Part shown: piece by piece, positions 35,997 through 44,210 of the stretch
How positions within the stretch are numbered: position 1 is the stretch's first letter
How the letters are laid out: each line of letters opens with the position of its first letter
DNA from: Gammaproteobacteria bacterium
GTDB lineage: Bacteria; Pseudomonadota; Gammaproteobacteria; Steroidobacterales; Steroidobacteraceae
Length of the DNA stretch: 64,000 bases
Assembly (NCBI GenBank): GCA_027365225.1
Contig: DAHXNV010000001.1
Location: 58,004 to 122,003, forward strand
Direction: 5' to 3'
The notes under the pieces: model-generated
What the model saw: only the letters and a program-made list of their open reading frames with translations
Told to the model about the DNA's origin: nothing
Databases searched by the model: none
Program-made: the position numbers and the translations under genes

Positions 35997-37169
35997 TCAA
36001 CCGGAGGGTCCTGGATCGCGCCGCCGCCGGGCGCGCGCCACCATCTGAAAGGCGAGCACGACGGCGACCAGGAAGGCCAGGGCGCTGGTTGCAAGCGTCA
36101 GATTCAGCATCTGTTCCAGCGTCTCGTCACGCACGTGAGCCCCCCGATCGGATGTTTGTGTGACCTCGAGATGGGCAATGACATCGTGGTCCGCCCTGCC
36201 GCGGATCGGCACGCTGACCGTGAGGGGCGCGTCGTGGCCCGCCTCGACCAGCCGGCGGAACAGGAGGGTGAGCATGCCGGCGTGCGGTGCCGGAATGCCC
36301 GGTACGATCGGCTTGGCCGCCTGGGCCAGCAGCGCGCCGGAGGGCGTGGTCACCGTAAGACGCAGTCCCGGCCGCAGCAAGCGGTGCAGGTAGACGGGGA
36401 GTGCCGCCGACGCCAGAACCAGTCCGCCTCGGGGGCGCAGGTTGTGCGGGTTCAGCATCCCGTAGACGAACGGTCTCGCCCCGCGGCGCACGCGATCATC
36501 GATCTGCACGCCGAAGGGTCCACCGACCATCGACAGCGGCATCGCGAACTCGACGTCGTAGCCGCCCGGTTCCAGTTGCAGCGCTCCGACGATGCGCGGA
36601 TCCAGGATCGCCCACTGTCGGCCGTACTCTCCGGTGATGATGCGGTCGGCTACCAGCGGTCCGGCGCCCTCGAGCGGTAGAAATTCCGAGTGCGGCCGCC
36701 CTTGCGGCCCGGCGAAGCCGATCCAGATGCGGTCGCCTATGGCGGCGCGATCGAGCGGATTGACGAGCGGGGTATCGAACACGGGCTGGGGGTCCGAGAT
36801 GCGCAGCAGCACATACAGCATTCGATTGGTGACACCGGTGAGAATGTCGAAATGATGGTTGCCGCTGCCGTAGCGGCGCCACGGGCGAGTCGCAGGCCAG
36901 CCTTGCGGATAGGCGTCGAAGTCGACCGGCGCCGGCAGCGGAACCGGCGTCAGCGTGTCCGGTCCGGGGTGGCGCGCTTCGGCCGCAAACCGGTAGATCA
37001 GGCGCGTACGGCCCTGGAGCGAGGCGGCCAGGGTGTGCGCGAGCGAGCTCAGGTCCAACCGCTCGCTGCGGCGCAGCTCGGCTTGCATCTGGCGCGCGTA
37101 ACGGACCCCGTCCCAGGGCAGCACCAGGGACACCAGCGTGAGGAGCAACAGCGAGAGCCAAGGCCGCAT
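35997..37169 (-). CDS. Two-helix periplasmic sensory protein without a kinase domain
   Basis: 390 residues. TM1 is at about 3-19 (PWLSLLLLTLVSLVLPW) and TM2 near 356-377 (LTLATSALAFLVAVVLAFQM); the roughly 340 residues between form a periplasmic sensor. It then stops after MVARARRRRDPGPSG, where a histidine kinase would begin its HAMP and catalytic domains. The N-terminus (LVLPWDGVRYARQMQAELRR, then SLAHTLAASLQGR) and the FDAYPQGW and DRIWIGFAG segments recall the sensor half of the proteobacterial sortase-system histidine kinase family. The next gene downstream does not supply a kinase. It could be a truncation or a natural stand-alone sensor. Confidence 0.6.
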   Translation of the reverse strand: MRPWLSLLLLTLVSLVLPWDGVRYARQMQAELRRSERLDLSSLAHTLAASLQGRTRLIYRFAAEARHPGPDTLTPVPLPAPVDFDAYPQGWPATRPWRRYGSGNHHFDILTGVTNRMLYVLLRISDPQPVFDTPLVNPLDRAAIGDRIWIGFAGPQGRPHSEFLPLEGAGPLVADRIITGEYGRQWAILDPRIVGALQLEPGGYDVEFAMPLSMVGGPFGVQIDDRVRRGARPFVYGMLNPHNLRPRGGLVLASAALPVYLHRLLRPGLRLTVTTPSGALLAQAAKPIVPGIPAPHAGMLTLLFRRLVEAGHDAPLTVSVPIRGRADHDVIAHLEVTQTSDRGAHVRDETLEQMLNLTLATSALAFLVAVVLAFQMVARARRRRDPGPSG

Positions 37170-37245
37170 CGAATCGTTTCAGCACTCTTTCAGCCGGCGC
37201 GTTTATAGTGGCGTCACCGCCTCATATGCGCGTACAGCCACGATC

Positions 37246-38535
37246 ATGAAGATACCTGAGATTTTGATCGTCGAGACCATTCATCAGCCCGGCAGCCTCG
37301 CCAAAGTGCTGCAGGTGATCGGCGATGCGGGTCTGACCATCCAGCATTTGACCGCCATACGGCGCGTGGAGGGCAAGACTCTCTGGGAAATTACCCTGGA
37401 GATGGACGAACAGGCCGACCGAAGTCTCTACACGCGGATCGACCAGTTGCCCAATGCCCGCTTCATCGGTAAATCCGATCGGGTATTCAATCGCCATCGC
37501 GGCGGCAAGATCCGCACCGTGGCGAGCCTGCCGATCAACACGCTGCAGACGCTGCGCGACATCTACACCCCCGGGGTCGCGCGGGTGTGCCTGGCCATTC
37601 AGCAGGACCCGCAGCTCGCCCACGAATACACGAGCATCGACAGCACGGTGGCGGTGATCACCAACGGCACGGCGGTGCTCGGCCTCGGCAACATCGGGCC
37701 GCTCGCCGGCTTGCCGGTGATGGAGGGCAAGGCGGCGCTGTTCGCCGATCTGGTGGGACTCTCGGCCGTGCCGATCCTGCTCGAGCAGACCCAGCCGGAG
37801 AAAGTCGTCGAGCTGATCTGTGGGATTCATTTGTCCTTCGGTGCGATCCAGCTCGAGGACTTCGCCGCTCCCGAGTGCTTCGCAATCGAGTCCCGGCTGC
37901 GCGAGCGGCTCGCCAAGCCGGTTCTGCACGACGATCAGCACGGGACCGCGGTGGTTGCGCTCGCCGCGCTGATCAATGCGGCACGCCGTGCCCGGCGCAG
38001 CCTGCCCGAGAGCACCGTGGGCCAGATCGGTCTCGGAGCGGCCGGCACGGGCATCGTGCGCCTGCTGCGCGCCTATGGCGTCAATCGGGTGCTGGGCGCG
38101 GACCGCAATCCGCAGGCGTTGGCGCGCATCAAGACGCTCGGGGCCGAAGCATCGACCCCGGAGTCGATCATGCGGGATGCGGACATCGTGGTCGCGACCA
38201 CCGGTGTCAAGGGGCTCATCCGACCCGAGTGGATCAGGCCGGGGCAGGTGATTCTGGCACTGTCCAATCCCGATCCGGAGATCGAGCCGAACCTGGCGCG
38301 CGAGCATGGCGCGGCCTTTGCCGCCGATGGCAAAGGGATCAACAACGTGCTGGCGTTTCCGGGGCTGTTCAAGGGGGCGCTCGCCGCCAAGGCCACGCGC
38401 TTCACGGACGCGATGCTCATGGCCGCGGCGCAGACACTGGCGGACTTGGCGGAAGACGATGCGCTCGTGCCCGGGCCGTTGGAAAAGAGCGTGCACGAGC
38501 AAGTGGCGGCGGCCGTCCAGGCCGCCGCCACTTAA
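37246..38535 (+). CDS. NAD(P)-dependent malic enzyme with N-terminal ACT domain
   Basis: 429 residues from ATG 37246 ([20 protein letters not shown]); an in-frame ATG at 37138 adds a non-conserved 36 residues. Residues about 1-80 are an ACT-type regulatory domain ([40 protein letters not shown]). The malic enzyme core follows: [56 protein letters not shown] (catalytic Lys/Asp area) and [19 protein letters not shown] for NAD(P). It decarboxylates malate to pyruvate. The ACT domain suggests control by a small ligand such as an amino acid. Confidence 0.9.
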
Positions 38536-38543
38536 GTCCGCGC

Positions 38544-39428
38544 TCAGGCCGCCGCCGCCTCGGGGGTCATCAGACCGCGCAGCTTGCCGAGCGCAGTGGC
38601 TTCGATCTGGCGGATGCGCTCGGCTGAAATGCCGTATTCCCCCGCCAGCTCGTGCAGCGTCGCCTTCTCCTCACGGATCCAGCGGCGTTCGACGATGTCG
38701 CGGCTGCGCGCGTCGAGCCGATCAAGGGCGGTGCGCAGGCGCGACGTGGAATCCCGTTCCCATTCCGCTTCCTCCACCTGATCGGCCGGGTCGGCGTTGG
38801 GGGACGGCAGGTACGCAGCCGGACTGTAGGCTTCCTCTTCGTCCGCGTCGGGTGCCGGATCGAACGCGAGATCGTGCGCCGCCAGGCGCTTCTCCATCTC
38901 GGTGACCTCGCTTGTGCTGACGCCGAGGTCGCGCGCCACGGCGGCGGTCTCTTCCACGGTGAGCCACGCGAGGTTCTTCTTCAGGCGGCGCAGATTGAAG
39001 AACAGCTTGCGCTGGGTTTTGGTGGTGGCAATCTTGACCAGGCGCCAATTGCGCAGAACATATTCATGGATCTCCGCCCGAATCCAATGCACGGCAAAGG
39101 ACACCAGGCGAACGTTAAGGGTTGGGTCGAAACGCTTGACCGCTTTCATCAAGCCGACGTTGCCTTCCTGGATCAGGTCGCTGAAGGGCAGCCCATAGCC
39201 GCGATAGCCCCGGGCGATGTGCACGACGAAGCGCAAGTGCGCCAGAACGAGCTGGCGGGCGGCATCGAGATCCCCGTGTTCTCGAAAGCGCTCGGCGAGC
39301 GCGCGCTCAGCCTCGCGATCGAGCACGGGGATGCGCCTCACCCGCTCGACGTACGCATCGACGCTGCCAATCGGCCCGACGACCGCGAGGTCGCAGGGGC
39401 GGGCGATCACTGCGGTGCTTGTGGACAT
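38544..39428 (-). CDS. rpoH: Heat-shock sigma factor RpoH (sigma-32)
   Basis: 294 residues from ATG 39428, chosen for its GGGAG five bases upstream; ATG 39440 lacks one. Sigma-70 region 2 is LVLAHLRFVVHIARGYRGYG then LPFSDLIQEGNVGLMKAVKR, with the -10-binding SFAVHWIRAEIHEYVLRNWR; the RpoH box QRKLFFNLRR is diagnostic; region 4 reads RSRDIVERRWI then LHELAGEYGISAERIRQIEA. It directs transcription of chaperone and protease genes. It lies alone rather than directly after ftsX as in E. coli. A perfect CIRCE operator sits just upstream. Confidence 0.97.
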   Translation of the reverse strand: MSTSTAVIARPCDLAVVGPIGSVDAYVERVRRIPVLDREAERALAERFREHGDLDAARQLVLAHLRFVVHIARGYRGYGLPFSDLIQEGNVGLMKAVKRFDPTLNVRLVSFAVHWIRAEIHEYVLRNWRLVKIATTKTQRKLFFNLRRLKKNLAWLTVEETAAVARDLGVSTSEVTEMEKRLAAHDLAFDPAPDADEEEAYSPAAYLPSPNADPADQVEEAEWERDSTSRLRTALDRLDARSRDIVERRWIREEKATLHELAGEYGISAERIRQIEATALGKLRGLMTPEAAAA

Positions 39429-39456
39429 CAATACTCCCATGCGCTGTAAGCAAATC

Positions 39457-39483
39457 TTAGCACTCGATGTCTTTGAGTGCTAA
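39457..39483 (-). promoter_or_regulatory. CIRCE element (HrcA operator) upstream of rpoH
   Basis: TTAGCACTC, 9 bp spacer, GAGTGCTAA: exact match to the CIRCE consensus (27 bp), ending 29 bp before the rpoH ATG. Read on the minus strand, TTAGCA and TAAGAT separated by 18 bp could be the -35 and -10 of an rpoH promoter lying in the same sites, with TAAGAT at 39455-39460. HrcA binding would then block RNA polymerase directly. Confidence 0.9.
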
Positions 39484-39638
39484 TCCGGGCCTGGGTTCCC
39501 GGGTAGCTCGCAAAACGGTATCGCTTAAGATCCCGCTCAACCGGGAGGCCTCAATACTTAGCCTTAATCATGACAATTCAGGTTCCCTCGCGCGAAGCCG
39601 GCTTTCGGGACTCGGAACGGCCGGCTACGCTCACCGGC

Positions 39639-40454
39639 ATGCCTGAGCTTCCCGAAGTCGAGACCACGCGTCGCGGTATCGCGCCGCACGTAACCGGGCG
39701 CACCATCGTGGCCCTCGAGCTCTACGAGCGGCGGCTGCGCTGGCCGGTGCCCCGCTCACTTGCGTTGCGGCTGCCGGGCCAGCGCATCGTGGGGACGGAT
39801 CGGCGCGCCAAATACCTGCTCATCATGCTGGAGCGAGGCACGGTGATCGTCCATCTGGGCATGTCGGGCTCGCTGCGGGTCCTGCCCGGCGACGCCCCCC
39901 GCACACGCCATGATCAGTATGACGTGCGGCTGGACTCGGGCCAGGTTCTGCGCTTCAACGACCCGCGCCGCTTCGGCAGTCTGCACTTCACGGAAGGCGA
40001 CCCCGAGCGCCACCGACTGCTCAGGGACTTGGCGCCCGAGCCGTTCGATTCGCGGTTCGATGCCGATTATCTCTGGGGCATCGCGCGGGGCCGACGGCTC
40101 GCGATCAAGCAGTTGCTGATGAACAGCCATCTGGTCGTCGGCGTAGGGAATATCTACGCCAACGAGGCACTCTTCCGAGCCGGCGTGCGCCCGGGGCGTG
40201 CGGCGGGCCGGCTCTCGCGGCTCGAGGCGCGGCGCCTCGTTGCAGCCATTCGAGCCGTTCTCACTGAGGCGATCCGGGCCGGCGGGACGACACTGCGCGA
40301 TTACGTCGGCGCCGACGGCGCACCGGGATATTTCCGCCAAAAACTGTTCGTATATGAGCGTGCCGGTACGCCGTGCCGCCGCTGCGGTACGCCGATCCGT
40401 CGCAGTACGCAGCAGGGCCGTTCGACGTATTTCTGCCCCGCGTGTCAGCGGTGA
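39639..40454 (+). CDS. mutM: Formamidopyrimidine-DNA glycosylase (MutM)
   Basis: 271 residues from ATG 39639; the frame is open upstream to 39570 but MPELPEVETTRRGIAPHVTG is the mature N-terminus, where the Pro after Met is the catalytic nucleophile. The enzyme removes 8-oxoguanine and cleaves the AP site. LLMNSHLVVGVGNIYANEAL is the helix-two-turns-helix DNA-binding segment; the C-terminal zinc finger is GTPCRRCGTPIRRSTQQGRS followed by TYFCPACQ (Cys4). Convergent with coaD. Confidence 0.96.
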   Translation: MPELPEVETTRRGIAPHVTGRTIVALELYERRLRWPVPRSLALRLPGQRIVGTDRRAKYLLIMLERGTVIVHLGMSGSLRVLPGDAPRTRHDQYDVRLDSGQVLRFNDPRRFGSLHFTEGDPERHRLLRDLAPEPFDSRFDADYLWGIARGRRLAIKQLLMNSHLVVGVGNIYANEALFRAGVRPGRAAGRLSRLEARRLVAAIRAVLTEAIRAGGTTLRDYVGADGAPGYFRQKLFVYERAGTPCRRCGTPIRRSTQQGRSTYFCPACQR

Positions 40455-41602: not shown

Positions 41603-42592
41603 ATGTTCGGACGCGAATCCAAAGACGAGGCGCCAAAGGGCGCGCAGCGTCAGGGCTTTCTCCAGCGCCTGACCCAGCGCCTAGGGCGTGGCAGCCGGCT
41701 CACGTTTGATCTGCCGGGCCTGTTCCGCGGCCGCAAGATCGACGCCGAGCTTCTCGAGGAGCTCGAGACCCGGCTGCTCGGCGCCGACGTGGGCATCGAG
41801 GCGACGGAGTCCATTCTCGCCGGACTCAACAAGCGCCTGGCGCGCAAGGAGCTGGCCGACGTCGAGGCCCTGATTGCGGCACTGCGCGCGACGGTGGAAG
41901 AGATACTGGCGCCGTGCGCGCGGCCATTGGTGGTCGATCCGCTGCGCAAGCCGTTCTCCATTCTGGTCGTCGGCGTGAATGGCTCGGGCAAGACCACGAC
42001 GATCGGCAAGCTGGCCCGTCGCCTGCATCAGGAGGGCCACAGTGTGCTGTTCGCGGCCGGCGACACCTTCCGCGCGGCGGCCATCGAGCAGCTCGCGGTC
42101 TGGGCCGAGCGCAGCGGCGCGAGCTGTGTCGCGCAACACGCCGGCGCCGATCCGGCGGCGGTGGTGTTCGATGCGCTGCAAGCGGCACGGGCGCGCGGCG
42201 TCGATGTGATGATCGCCGATACCGCCGGCCGCCTGCACAGTCAGTCGCATCTGATGCAGGAGCTGAAAAAGGTCAAACGGGTGCTGCAGCGCGGCGATCC
42301 GGCCGCGCCGGACGAGGTTCTCCTGGTGCTCGATGCGAACCAGGGACAAAATGCTCTGACGCAAGCCGTACAGTTTCACGAGGCCGTGGGCGTCACCGGG
42401 CTCGCGATCACCAAGCTCGACGGGACCGCCAAGGGCGGGATCGTGATCGCCATTGCGCGCCGTCTGGGACTGCCCATCCGCTTCATCGGCATCGGCGAGC
42501 AAGCGGAGGATTTCGGCGAATTCGATGCGCGCGCCTTCGCGTCCGCACTGGTCTCGGGTGCGCACGAGCCCGCCGGGCAGGAGGGAGGATGA
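41603..42592 (+). CDS. ftsY: Signal recognition particle receptor FtsY (short form)
   Basis: 329 residues, lacking the long acidic N-terminal domain seen in E. coli (497). The N domain is about 1-110 and the GTPase G domain follows: [20 protein letters not shown] (P-loop), [40 protein letters not shown] (G3), [20 protein letters not shown] (G4) and [20 protein letters not shown]. It targets membrane proteins with the SRP. Its stop overlaps the ftsE start. Confidence 0.96.
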
Positions 42593-43281
42593 TCCGGCTC
42601 GAGCGGGTCAGCAAGCGCTATCCGAACGGACGCGAGGCGCTTACCAACGTGAGTTTCTTCGTCGACCGCGGGGAGCTGTTGTTCATCACCGGCCGCTCGG
42701 GAGCGGGCAAGAGCACTCTGCTGAAGGTGATCGCGCTGCTCGAGCGCCCGACGCGCGGCACCGTGACCATCAATGGCCGCAACATCGGCGCGCTCGGCGC
42801 GCGGCATATTCCGGCGTTTCGTCGCCAGCTGGGCATGGTCTTCCAGGATCACAAGCTGTTGGCGGACCGGCCGGTATTCGACAACGTCGCGCTGCCGCTG
42901 GTGGTGGCCGCAACGCCGTTCAAGGACATCGACAAGCGCGTGCGCGCGGCGCTCGATCAAGTGGGTCTGCTCGGCAAAGAGCGCATGTTGCCCCTGGAAC
43001 TGTCGGTCGGCGAGCAGCAGCGCGTGGGGATCGCGCGCGCGGTTGTGGGCAAGCCGCCGCTGATCGTGGCCGATGAGCCCACCGGCAATCTCGATCCGGA
43101 TCTGGCGCTGGAGGTGATGCGGCTGTTCAGACGGTTCAGTGAAGTCGGCGTGACCGTGCTCGTAGCCACGCATGATGTGCACATCGTGCGTGAGTTCGGT
43201 AGCCGCGAGATCGTCCTGACGAACGGCGAGCTGACCGGCGGCAGTGCCGATCCGCTGCCCTCGCTGGTTGCGAGCCGCTGA
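42589..43281 (+). CDS. ftsE: Cell division ATP-binding protein FtsE
   Basis: 230 residues. Walker A ITGRSGAGKSTLLKV, signature ELSVGEQQRVGIARAVVGKP, Walker B LIVADEPTGNLDPDLA, switch His ATHDVHIVREF. With FtsX it controls peptidoglycan hydrolases at the septum through EnvC-type partners. Coupled to ftsY by an ATGA overlap; ftsX follows after 17 bp. Confidence 0.96.
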   Translation: MIRLERVSKRYPNGREALTNVSFFVDRGELLFITGRSGAGKSTLLKVIALLERPTRGTVTINGRNIGALGARHIPAFRRQLGMVFQDHKLLADRPVFDNVALPLVVAATPFKDIDKRVRAALDQVGLLGKERMLPLELSVGEQQRVGIARAVVGKPPLIVADEPTGNLDPDLALEVMRLFRRFSEVGVTVLVATHDVHIVREFGSREIVLTNGELTGGSADPLPSLVASR

Positions 43282-43298
43282 GCCGCGGGCGCTTCGAC

Positions 43299-44210
43299 GT
43301 GCTGGACAGTCGCCAACTGCAAGCATTGCTCGGTGCCCTGGGGCGCCTGGCGCGCGCGCCTCTGGCAACGATGTTCACGCTGCTGGTGATCGGACTTGCG
43401 CTGGCGCTGCCGGGCGCGCTGGGATTGCTCGTGCGCAATGCCGAGGCGGTGAGCGGCGGCATCGGCCGCGCGGTCGATATGACGGTCTATCTGAAGAATG
43501 GCGTGCCGTTGTCCCGCGCGCAGCAGCTCGCCACGGCCGCCAGGTCCGAGCCCGGCGTGGCCAGCGTGACGGTCATCTCCGCGGGCGAGGGGCTGCGCCA
43601 GTTCCGCAAGTATTCGGGTTTCGGTGCGGCGCTGGCTGCGCTCAAGAGCAATCCGTTGCCCAATGTGTTGCGCGTCGTCCCACGGCCGCGTGCCAGCGGT
43701 CCTTTGGCGCTCGAGGCGCTGCGGCGCACTTTCGCCGCCTGGCCCGAGGTGGACATGGTCCAGCTCGACACGCAGTGGGTCATGCGGTTCGAGGCCATCG
43801 TCGCGCTGGTGCGGCGGCTCGTGTTGCTCGCGGCGGTCCTGCTCGGCGCCGGCGTGCTGGCCGTGGTAGGCAATACGATCCGGCTCGAGATCCTCAATCG
43901 CAGCGATGAGATCGAGGTTACCAAGCTCGTCGGAGGCTCGAACGCGTTTGTCCGCCGTCCGTTCGTATACACCGGCGCGCTGTATGGCTTGGGCGGCGCA
44001 CTGCTCGCGTGGCTCATCCTGGAGGGCGCGGTTCTCGCGCTGTCGGGGCCGGCGGCCCGCCTCGCGGAACTCTACGGCAGCGGCTTTGTGTTGCAGGGCC
44101 TTGGCGGCCGGGAGCTGGCCCTGCTGTTGGGCGGGGGCATGGCCCTCGGCTGGCTTGGGGCGTGGATCTCCGCCTTTCGTCATCTGCGCAGCTTCGAGCC
44201 TCGCGCCTGA
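43299..44210 (+). CDS. ftsX: Cell division protein FtsX
   Basis: 303 residues from a GTG (MLDSRQLQALLGALGRLARA). Four transmembrane helices: one near 25-45, then three in the C-terminal half (LVRRLVLLAAVLLGAGVLAV, ALYGLGGALLAWLILEGAVL, ALLLGGGMALGWLGAWISAF). The periplasmic loop lies between helix 1 and 2 and VTKLVGGSNAFVRRPFVYTG is the family signature. Convergent with rpmG. Confidence 0.93.
   Translation: MLDSRQLQALLGALGRLARAPLATMFTLLVIGLALALPGALGLLVRNAEAVSGGIGRAVDMTVYLKNGVPLSRAQQLATAARSEPGVASVTVISAGEGLRQFRKYSGFGAALAALKSNPLPNVLRVVPRPRASGPLALEALRRTFAAWPEVDMVQLDTQWVMRFEAIVALVRRLVLLAAVLLGAGVLAVVGNTIRLEILNRSDEIEVTKLVGGSNAFVRRPFVYTGALYGLGGALLAWLILEGAVLALSGPAARLAELYGSGFVLQGLGGRELALLLGGGMALGWLGAWISAFRHLRSFEPRA

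Follow-up and report, generated by a model that had tools for sequence, protein, structure and literature searches.

Textbooks present two controls of the heat-shock response, repression by HrcA and activation by sigma-32, as alternatives or as running in parallel, with E. coli sigma-32 as the gammaproteobacterial model. The level of sigma-32 in E. coli is set mainly after transcription; in the alphaproteobacteria its gene, rpoH, is autoregulated by sigma-32. E. coli rpoH carries the sequence GAACTT-N16-TCTGA, which is its known sigma-E promoter P3. The classical HrcA regulon, marked by the CIRCE operator, consists of groESL and hrcA-grpE-dnaK-dnaJ. For Geobacter sulfurreducens, a study of 2004 (PMC545781, Table 8) predicted a CIRCE at rpoH itself; it reports neither overlap with promoters nor wide conservation.

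We describe a gammaproteobacterial rpoH locus with a perfect CIRCE. As in Geobacter sulfurreducens, where the identical operator stands upstream of rpoH at position -51 (PMC545781), CIRCE is also found at groESL; that organism belongs to a different phylum, however, and its hrcA-grpE-dnaK operon also has CIRCE. The operator is the one used by the classical regulon, including at the groESL genes of the present genome, but hrcA is without CIRCE in most of the relatives examined. With E. coli the locus shares a promoter of the form GAACTT-N16-TC..A upstream of rpoH, whereas both hrcA and the rpoH CIRCE are absent from E. coli. Regulation would be transcriptional, as for alphaproteobacterial rpoH, but through a repressor, although one hrcA-less genus of the same order has a sigma-32-like promoter instead.

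The rpoH locus

The window, meaning the whole stretch of 64,000 nucleotides that was analysed, comes from a metagenome-assembled genome (MAG) of 1.96 Mb in 218 contigs, 66% complete. The nearest named relatives of its RpoH are in gammaproteobacterial MAGs, one of them labelled Steroidobacteraceae, and then in Woeseiaceae. The genes and sites at the center of this analysis are as follows, in window positions:

38544..39428, minus strand: rpoH, heat-shock sigma factor sigma-32, passing the equivalog model TIGR02392 with 402 bits (cut-off 323); probable start ATG at 39428
39434..39438, minus strand: probable ribosome-binding site GGGAG, read in the sequence; GGGAG or GGAG is similarly placed in congeners
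39457..39483, no strand assigned: CIRCE operator, perfect TTAGCACTC-N9-GAGTGCTAA, exact match, conserved
39639..40454, plus strand: mutM/fpg (TIGR00577/NF002211), divergent neighbour, probably not a CIRCE target

The longest rpoH open reading frame begins at 39440, with an upstream in-frame ATG that overlaps the ribosome-binding site. Because of this overlap, and because a distance of 28-29 bp between CIRCE and the start codon is conserved in the genus, the ATG at 39428 is the likely start; 28 bp separate it from CIRCE. For mutM the family match begins at residue 24 of a long open reading frame, which places the start near 39639.

A first-pass annotation of this DNA had reported a perfect CIRCE at rpoH. 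The exact match was confirmed, but the site had been drawn as starting 2 bp early. It is the sole match to CIRCE in the window at ≤3 mismatches, and 100 dinucleotide shuffles of the window gave 0 matches; it is not a chance match. Across the 1.96-Mb genome the same threshold yields one further CIRCE, a site before groESL with 2 mismatches, and the reversed pattern, used as a control, has 0 matches. The second site, TTAGCACTC-N9-GGCTGCTAA on the plus strand of the groES locus (contig C218), marks groESL as a target of the HrcA/CIRCE regulon. Many congener species show the same departure in one arm of the groESL operator (for example L002:1501-1527), and their rpoH operators are often perfect. 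With a perfect operator at rpoH and an imperfect arm at groESL, rpoH may conceivably be held more tightly than groESL, but this is a guess.

The operator lies between two divergent genes, 155 bp from mutM, which runs upstream in the opposite direction, and it might be thought to serve mutM. The distance from CIRCE to rpoH stays constant, however, whether the gene upstream is ftsX (61 loci), mutM (11) or another, and the promoter elements described below face rpoH. A role at mutM is thus already largely refuted, and we give it hardly any credence.

The usual ftsYEX-rpoH order is lost here. The ftsY-ftsE-ftsX genes are found at window 41603-44210, a few kb from rpoH, with mutM, coaD and rsmD in between; from their present position we conclude that rpoH has left the position behind ftsX that it usually occupies and that the operator moved along with it.

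Two proteins on the other side of rpoH are only partly covered by the models that they match. The product of 37243-38535 (plus strand) matches only residues 20-359 of NF009501, a 764-residue model for malic enzyme; the score is below the cut-off, and the protein has approximately 86 extra N-terminal residues that resemble an ACT-type regulatory domain. The 390-aa product of 35997-37169 (minus strand) matches only the first third of TIGR03785, a model for a proteobacterial sortase-system histidine kinase, with 75 bits, again below the cut-off and apparently without the kinase part.

Conservation within the order

In a sample of 99 genomes from the order, the region upstream of rpoH could be used at 96 loci, which come from 95 genomes. 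CIRCE with ≤2 mismatches was found directly before rpoH at 93 of these loci (92 of 95 genomes). All three exceptions (G071, G084 and G095) belong to one genus, g15, and are without hrcA; CIRCE is entirely missing from these three genomes and from no others in the sample. This loss is one evolutionary event and is to be weighed as one. Before their rpoH genes (loci L113, L110 and L098) stands a sigma-32-like promoter, CTTGAAA-N13-CCCCAA or CCCCCA, with a best match of 12/13, followed by TGRTAAAAT. To judge from these motifs, it is as if the repressor had been replaced in this genus by positive autoregulation at rpoH.

The hrcA gene is carried by 86 of the 99 genomes in the sample of relatives and by 52 of 57 congeners. 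Its own upstream region has no CIRCE at ≤3 mismatches in 26 of the 29 full-length regions from relatives. One genome estimated to be 100% complete (G063, locus L033) has two perfect CIRCE sites and no detected hrcA. Another (G012) has two different rpoH loci (L114 and L122), each with a perfect CIRCE, which may be a real duplication or a mixture of strains.

Promoter elements under the operator

The first-pass annotation had also placed the operator over the likely -35 and -10 boxes of rpoH. That CIRCE overlaps promoters held up, but the placement was corrected to a sigma-E pair and a sigma-70 promoter of the extended -10 type:

39493..39499, minus strand: sigma-E type -35 element GGAACCC, from the fixed offset of GAAC[TC] to CIRCE
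39472..39476, minus strand: sigma-E type -10 element TCAAA, inside CIRCE (left arm and spacer), N16 from the -35, with co-variation of the A at +11
39454..39462, minus strand: extended -10 sigma-70 element TGC-TAAGAT (TGCTAAGAT), made of the end of the right CIRCE arm and 3 bases beyond
39478..39483, minus strand: possible sigma-70 -35 element TTAGCA in the left CIRCE arm, with an 18-bp spacer and 4/6 consensus positions, weak

These elements are visible only by alignment; a sigma-70 scan at a threshold of 9/12 found no promoter match. When 92 sequences from the order were aligned on CIRCE (its first base being 0), two conserved features appeared outside the operator. The first is GGAAC(T/C) at -16, which together with A-A at +10/+11 gives GGAACTT-N16-TCNAA, the form of a sigma-E promoter. 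The window has GGAACCC-N16-TCAAA, with the -35, N16 spacing and -10 of the E. coli P3 type. GAAC[TC] begins 15 or 16 bases before CIRCE at 83 of 93 loci in the order, no other offset occurring more than twice, and in the class it does so at 59 of 93 loci (61 with offset -14), with at most 4 at any other offset. The A at +11 co-varies with this -35 element, being present at 55 of 61 loci that have it vs 11 of 32 that do not (p = 4e-8). The genome encodes rpoE (TIGR02939, 288.8 bits, over the cut-off), whose own upstream region carries GAACTT-N16-TCTAT.

The second feature is a T at +29, three bases past CIRCE, found at 93 of 93 rpoH loci in the order vs 0 of 13 groES CIRCE sites. Taken with the right arm it gives TGC-TA(A/G)NAT, an extended -10 sigma-70 form. 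The weak TTAGCA -35 element is not separable from the operator itself. At groES the layout is another one, in which CTTGAAA...CCTATNA comes first and CIRCE lies just downstream of the -10. CIRCE at rpoH thus covers both promoters, sigma-E and sigma-70.

The promoter positions also bear on whether the inverted repeat works as RNA, forming a hairpin or thermometer in the leader of the rpoH mRNA, and not as a DNA operator. Palindromes close to a start codon can fold, and E. coli rpoH does use an RNA thermometer. However, of the two inferred starts, that of sigma-E falls within CIRCE and that of sigma-70 past its end; neither transcript would contain the whole palindrome. The leader folds no better than its shuffles, by a weak test (z of -1.1 and -0.03), and the N9 spacer is for the most part free to vary, showing no trace of a selected loop. 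A search of Rfam returned only sub-threshold noise. We consider an RNA role highly improbable.

Conservation across the class and beyond

The class was surveyed with one genome per gammaproteobacterial family, searching 350 bp upstream of rpoH for CIRCE with ≤4 mismatches. The site was found in 83 of 90 family genomes that carry hrcA vs 9 of 36 that do not (Fisher p = 1.1e-13). Among the seven misses with hrcA, one (G211) does have CIRCE, its spacer being 8 bases long, and another (G135) retains the right arm only. Among the carriers with a name are Thioalkalivibrio sp. ALJ21 (L204) and Methylocaldum sp. 14B (L234), both with a perfect site, Crenothrix polyspora and Woeseiaceae MAGs; no CIRCE was found at rpoH in the Pseudomonas, Halomonas, Endozoicomonas and Salinisphaera loci examined.

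Since families are not independent of one another, we constructed a tree of RpoH with 129 rows and made comparisons between pairs whose paths are well supported and do not overlap, scoring G000 as a carrier of hrcA (on the evidence of its genus) and G211 as having CIRCE. CIRCE tracks hrcA in approximately 7.5 of 9 independent pairs and runs opposite to it in 0 (median sign-test p 0.0078), a result that is unchanged when low-completeness genomes are left out.

In 30 genomes of other Pseudomonadota, hrcA was found in 24, only one of which has a CIRCE-like site near rpoH. It is therefore the Gammaproteobacteria, and not carriage of HrcA generally, to which the link between CIRCE and rpoH belongs. 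The lone case outside the class is locus L422 of genome G271, a genome with hrcA, where the site has 3 mismatches. Within the class, by these surveys, CIRCE at rpoH is the rule and not a quirk.

The families that lack hrcA differ in what they have kept. In G175, which is 100% complete and without hrcA, CIRCE is broken by a 1-base deletion in one arm, which looks like what is expected after loss of the repressor. Nine families have CIRCE at rpoH without a detected hrcA, in several cases in genomes that are 97-99% complete (G114, G192, G226 and G233). Good rpoH operators in near-complete genomes without detected hrcA are those of L356/G114, L264/G192, L307/G226, L354/G233 and L033/G063. Such cases possibly reflect a very divergent repressor or a recent loss. 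We considered whether families without hrcA had generally exchanged CIRCE for a sigma-32 promoter; this was not seen, except in the single genus g15.

The repressor gene in the host genome

The first-pass annotation had counted absence of hrcA from the genome as evidence against HrcA control. We did not find hrcA in this MAG, with E. coli, which is without hrcA, as the control, so that formally the gene is absent from the assembly. Neither grpE nor full dnaK was found there either. In relatives within this class hrcA, grpE and dnaK usually form one cluster, and because grpE and dnaK are missing too, the hrcA locus is probably unassembled. For this reason, and given its presence in nearly all congeners, we do not count the absence as refuting HrcA control.

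The same absence could be read another way, with hrcA lost in this species and the CIRCE bases persisting only for their second role in the -10 boxes, that of sigma-E and the extended one of sigma-70. Part of the palindrome does double as promoter sequence, and the nine families with an operator but no detected repressor would fit. Yet an assembly gap better covers the joint lack of the three genes, since grpE and dnaK are normally indispensable to free-living members of this class, and 52 of 57 congeners do have hrcA. Constraint from the promoters would also leave the intact GAG at 39463-39465 and the TTAGCAC of the left arm unexplained, and where hrcA is truly gone (f12) the palindrome is gone as well. 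A relic is therefore unlikely, and we keep to the reading of the site as a working HrcA operator.

Proposed control of rpoH by HrcA

We consider it very probable, from position and conservation, that HrcA uses the site as an operator, superimposed on the rpoH promoters, and HrcA would accordingly be a repressor of rpoH. The central proposal of the first-pass annotation, in which HrcA control of rpoH links the two heat-shock systems in a chain, draws strong support from the comparative evidence, both the family survey (83/90 vs 9/36) and the independent pairs (approximately 7.5 vs 0).

In the proposed circuit, HrcA folded by GroEL would bind CIRCE at normal temperature and block RNA polymerase at both rpoH promoters. 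Under heat or other misfolding stress GroEL would be titrated away from HrcA, HrcA would fail, and groESL and rpoH would be released together. The released sigma-32 would then switch on dnaK and other heat-shock genes, and under envelope stress sigma-E could raise rpoH further once HrcA is off. HrcA would in this way control groESL directly, and the remainder of the response by way of sigma-32. Since hrcA is without CIRCE in most relatives, their HrcA would likewise act directly on groESL and rpoH and would reach dnaK only via sigma-32. The last step, sigma-32 acting on dnaK, follows the general picture of heat-shock regulation; consensus scores for a sigma-32 promoter before hrcA-grpE-dnaK in relatives were no better than those of shuffles.

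We lean, by a small degree, towards a broader reading in which a composite rpoH switch of approximately 50 bp, combining HrcA/GroEL as the sensor of cytoplasmic folding, sigma-E as that of the envelope, and housekeeping sigma-70, is present in most gammaproteobacteria with HrcA and is ancestral to the class, the E. coli arrangement, with P3, no HrcA and post-transcriptional control of sigma-32, being a remnant after loss of HrcA and its operator.

Our literature search found no report of a gammaproteobacterium-wide pattern or of overlap with a sigma-E promoter. The 2003 work of Permina and Gelfand, reportedly on beta-, gamma- and epsilon-proteobacteria, may hold gammaproteobacterial cases. The class-wide pattern and the sigma-E overlap are thus apparently new, and part may possibly have been reported before.

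Two stress systems usually deemed parallel appear, on this comparative evidence, to be wired in series. If HrcA does gate rpoH in most hrcA-bearing families, the capacity of GroEL would set the supply of sigma-32, and E. coli would be the exception, a derived state. An overlap of CIRCE with a sigma-E promoter would account for where the two kinds of stress, cytoplasmic and envelope, are brought together. It also raises the testable question of what replaces HrcA after its loss, to which the data suggest that the answers differ by lineage.
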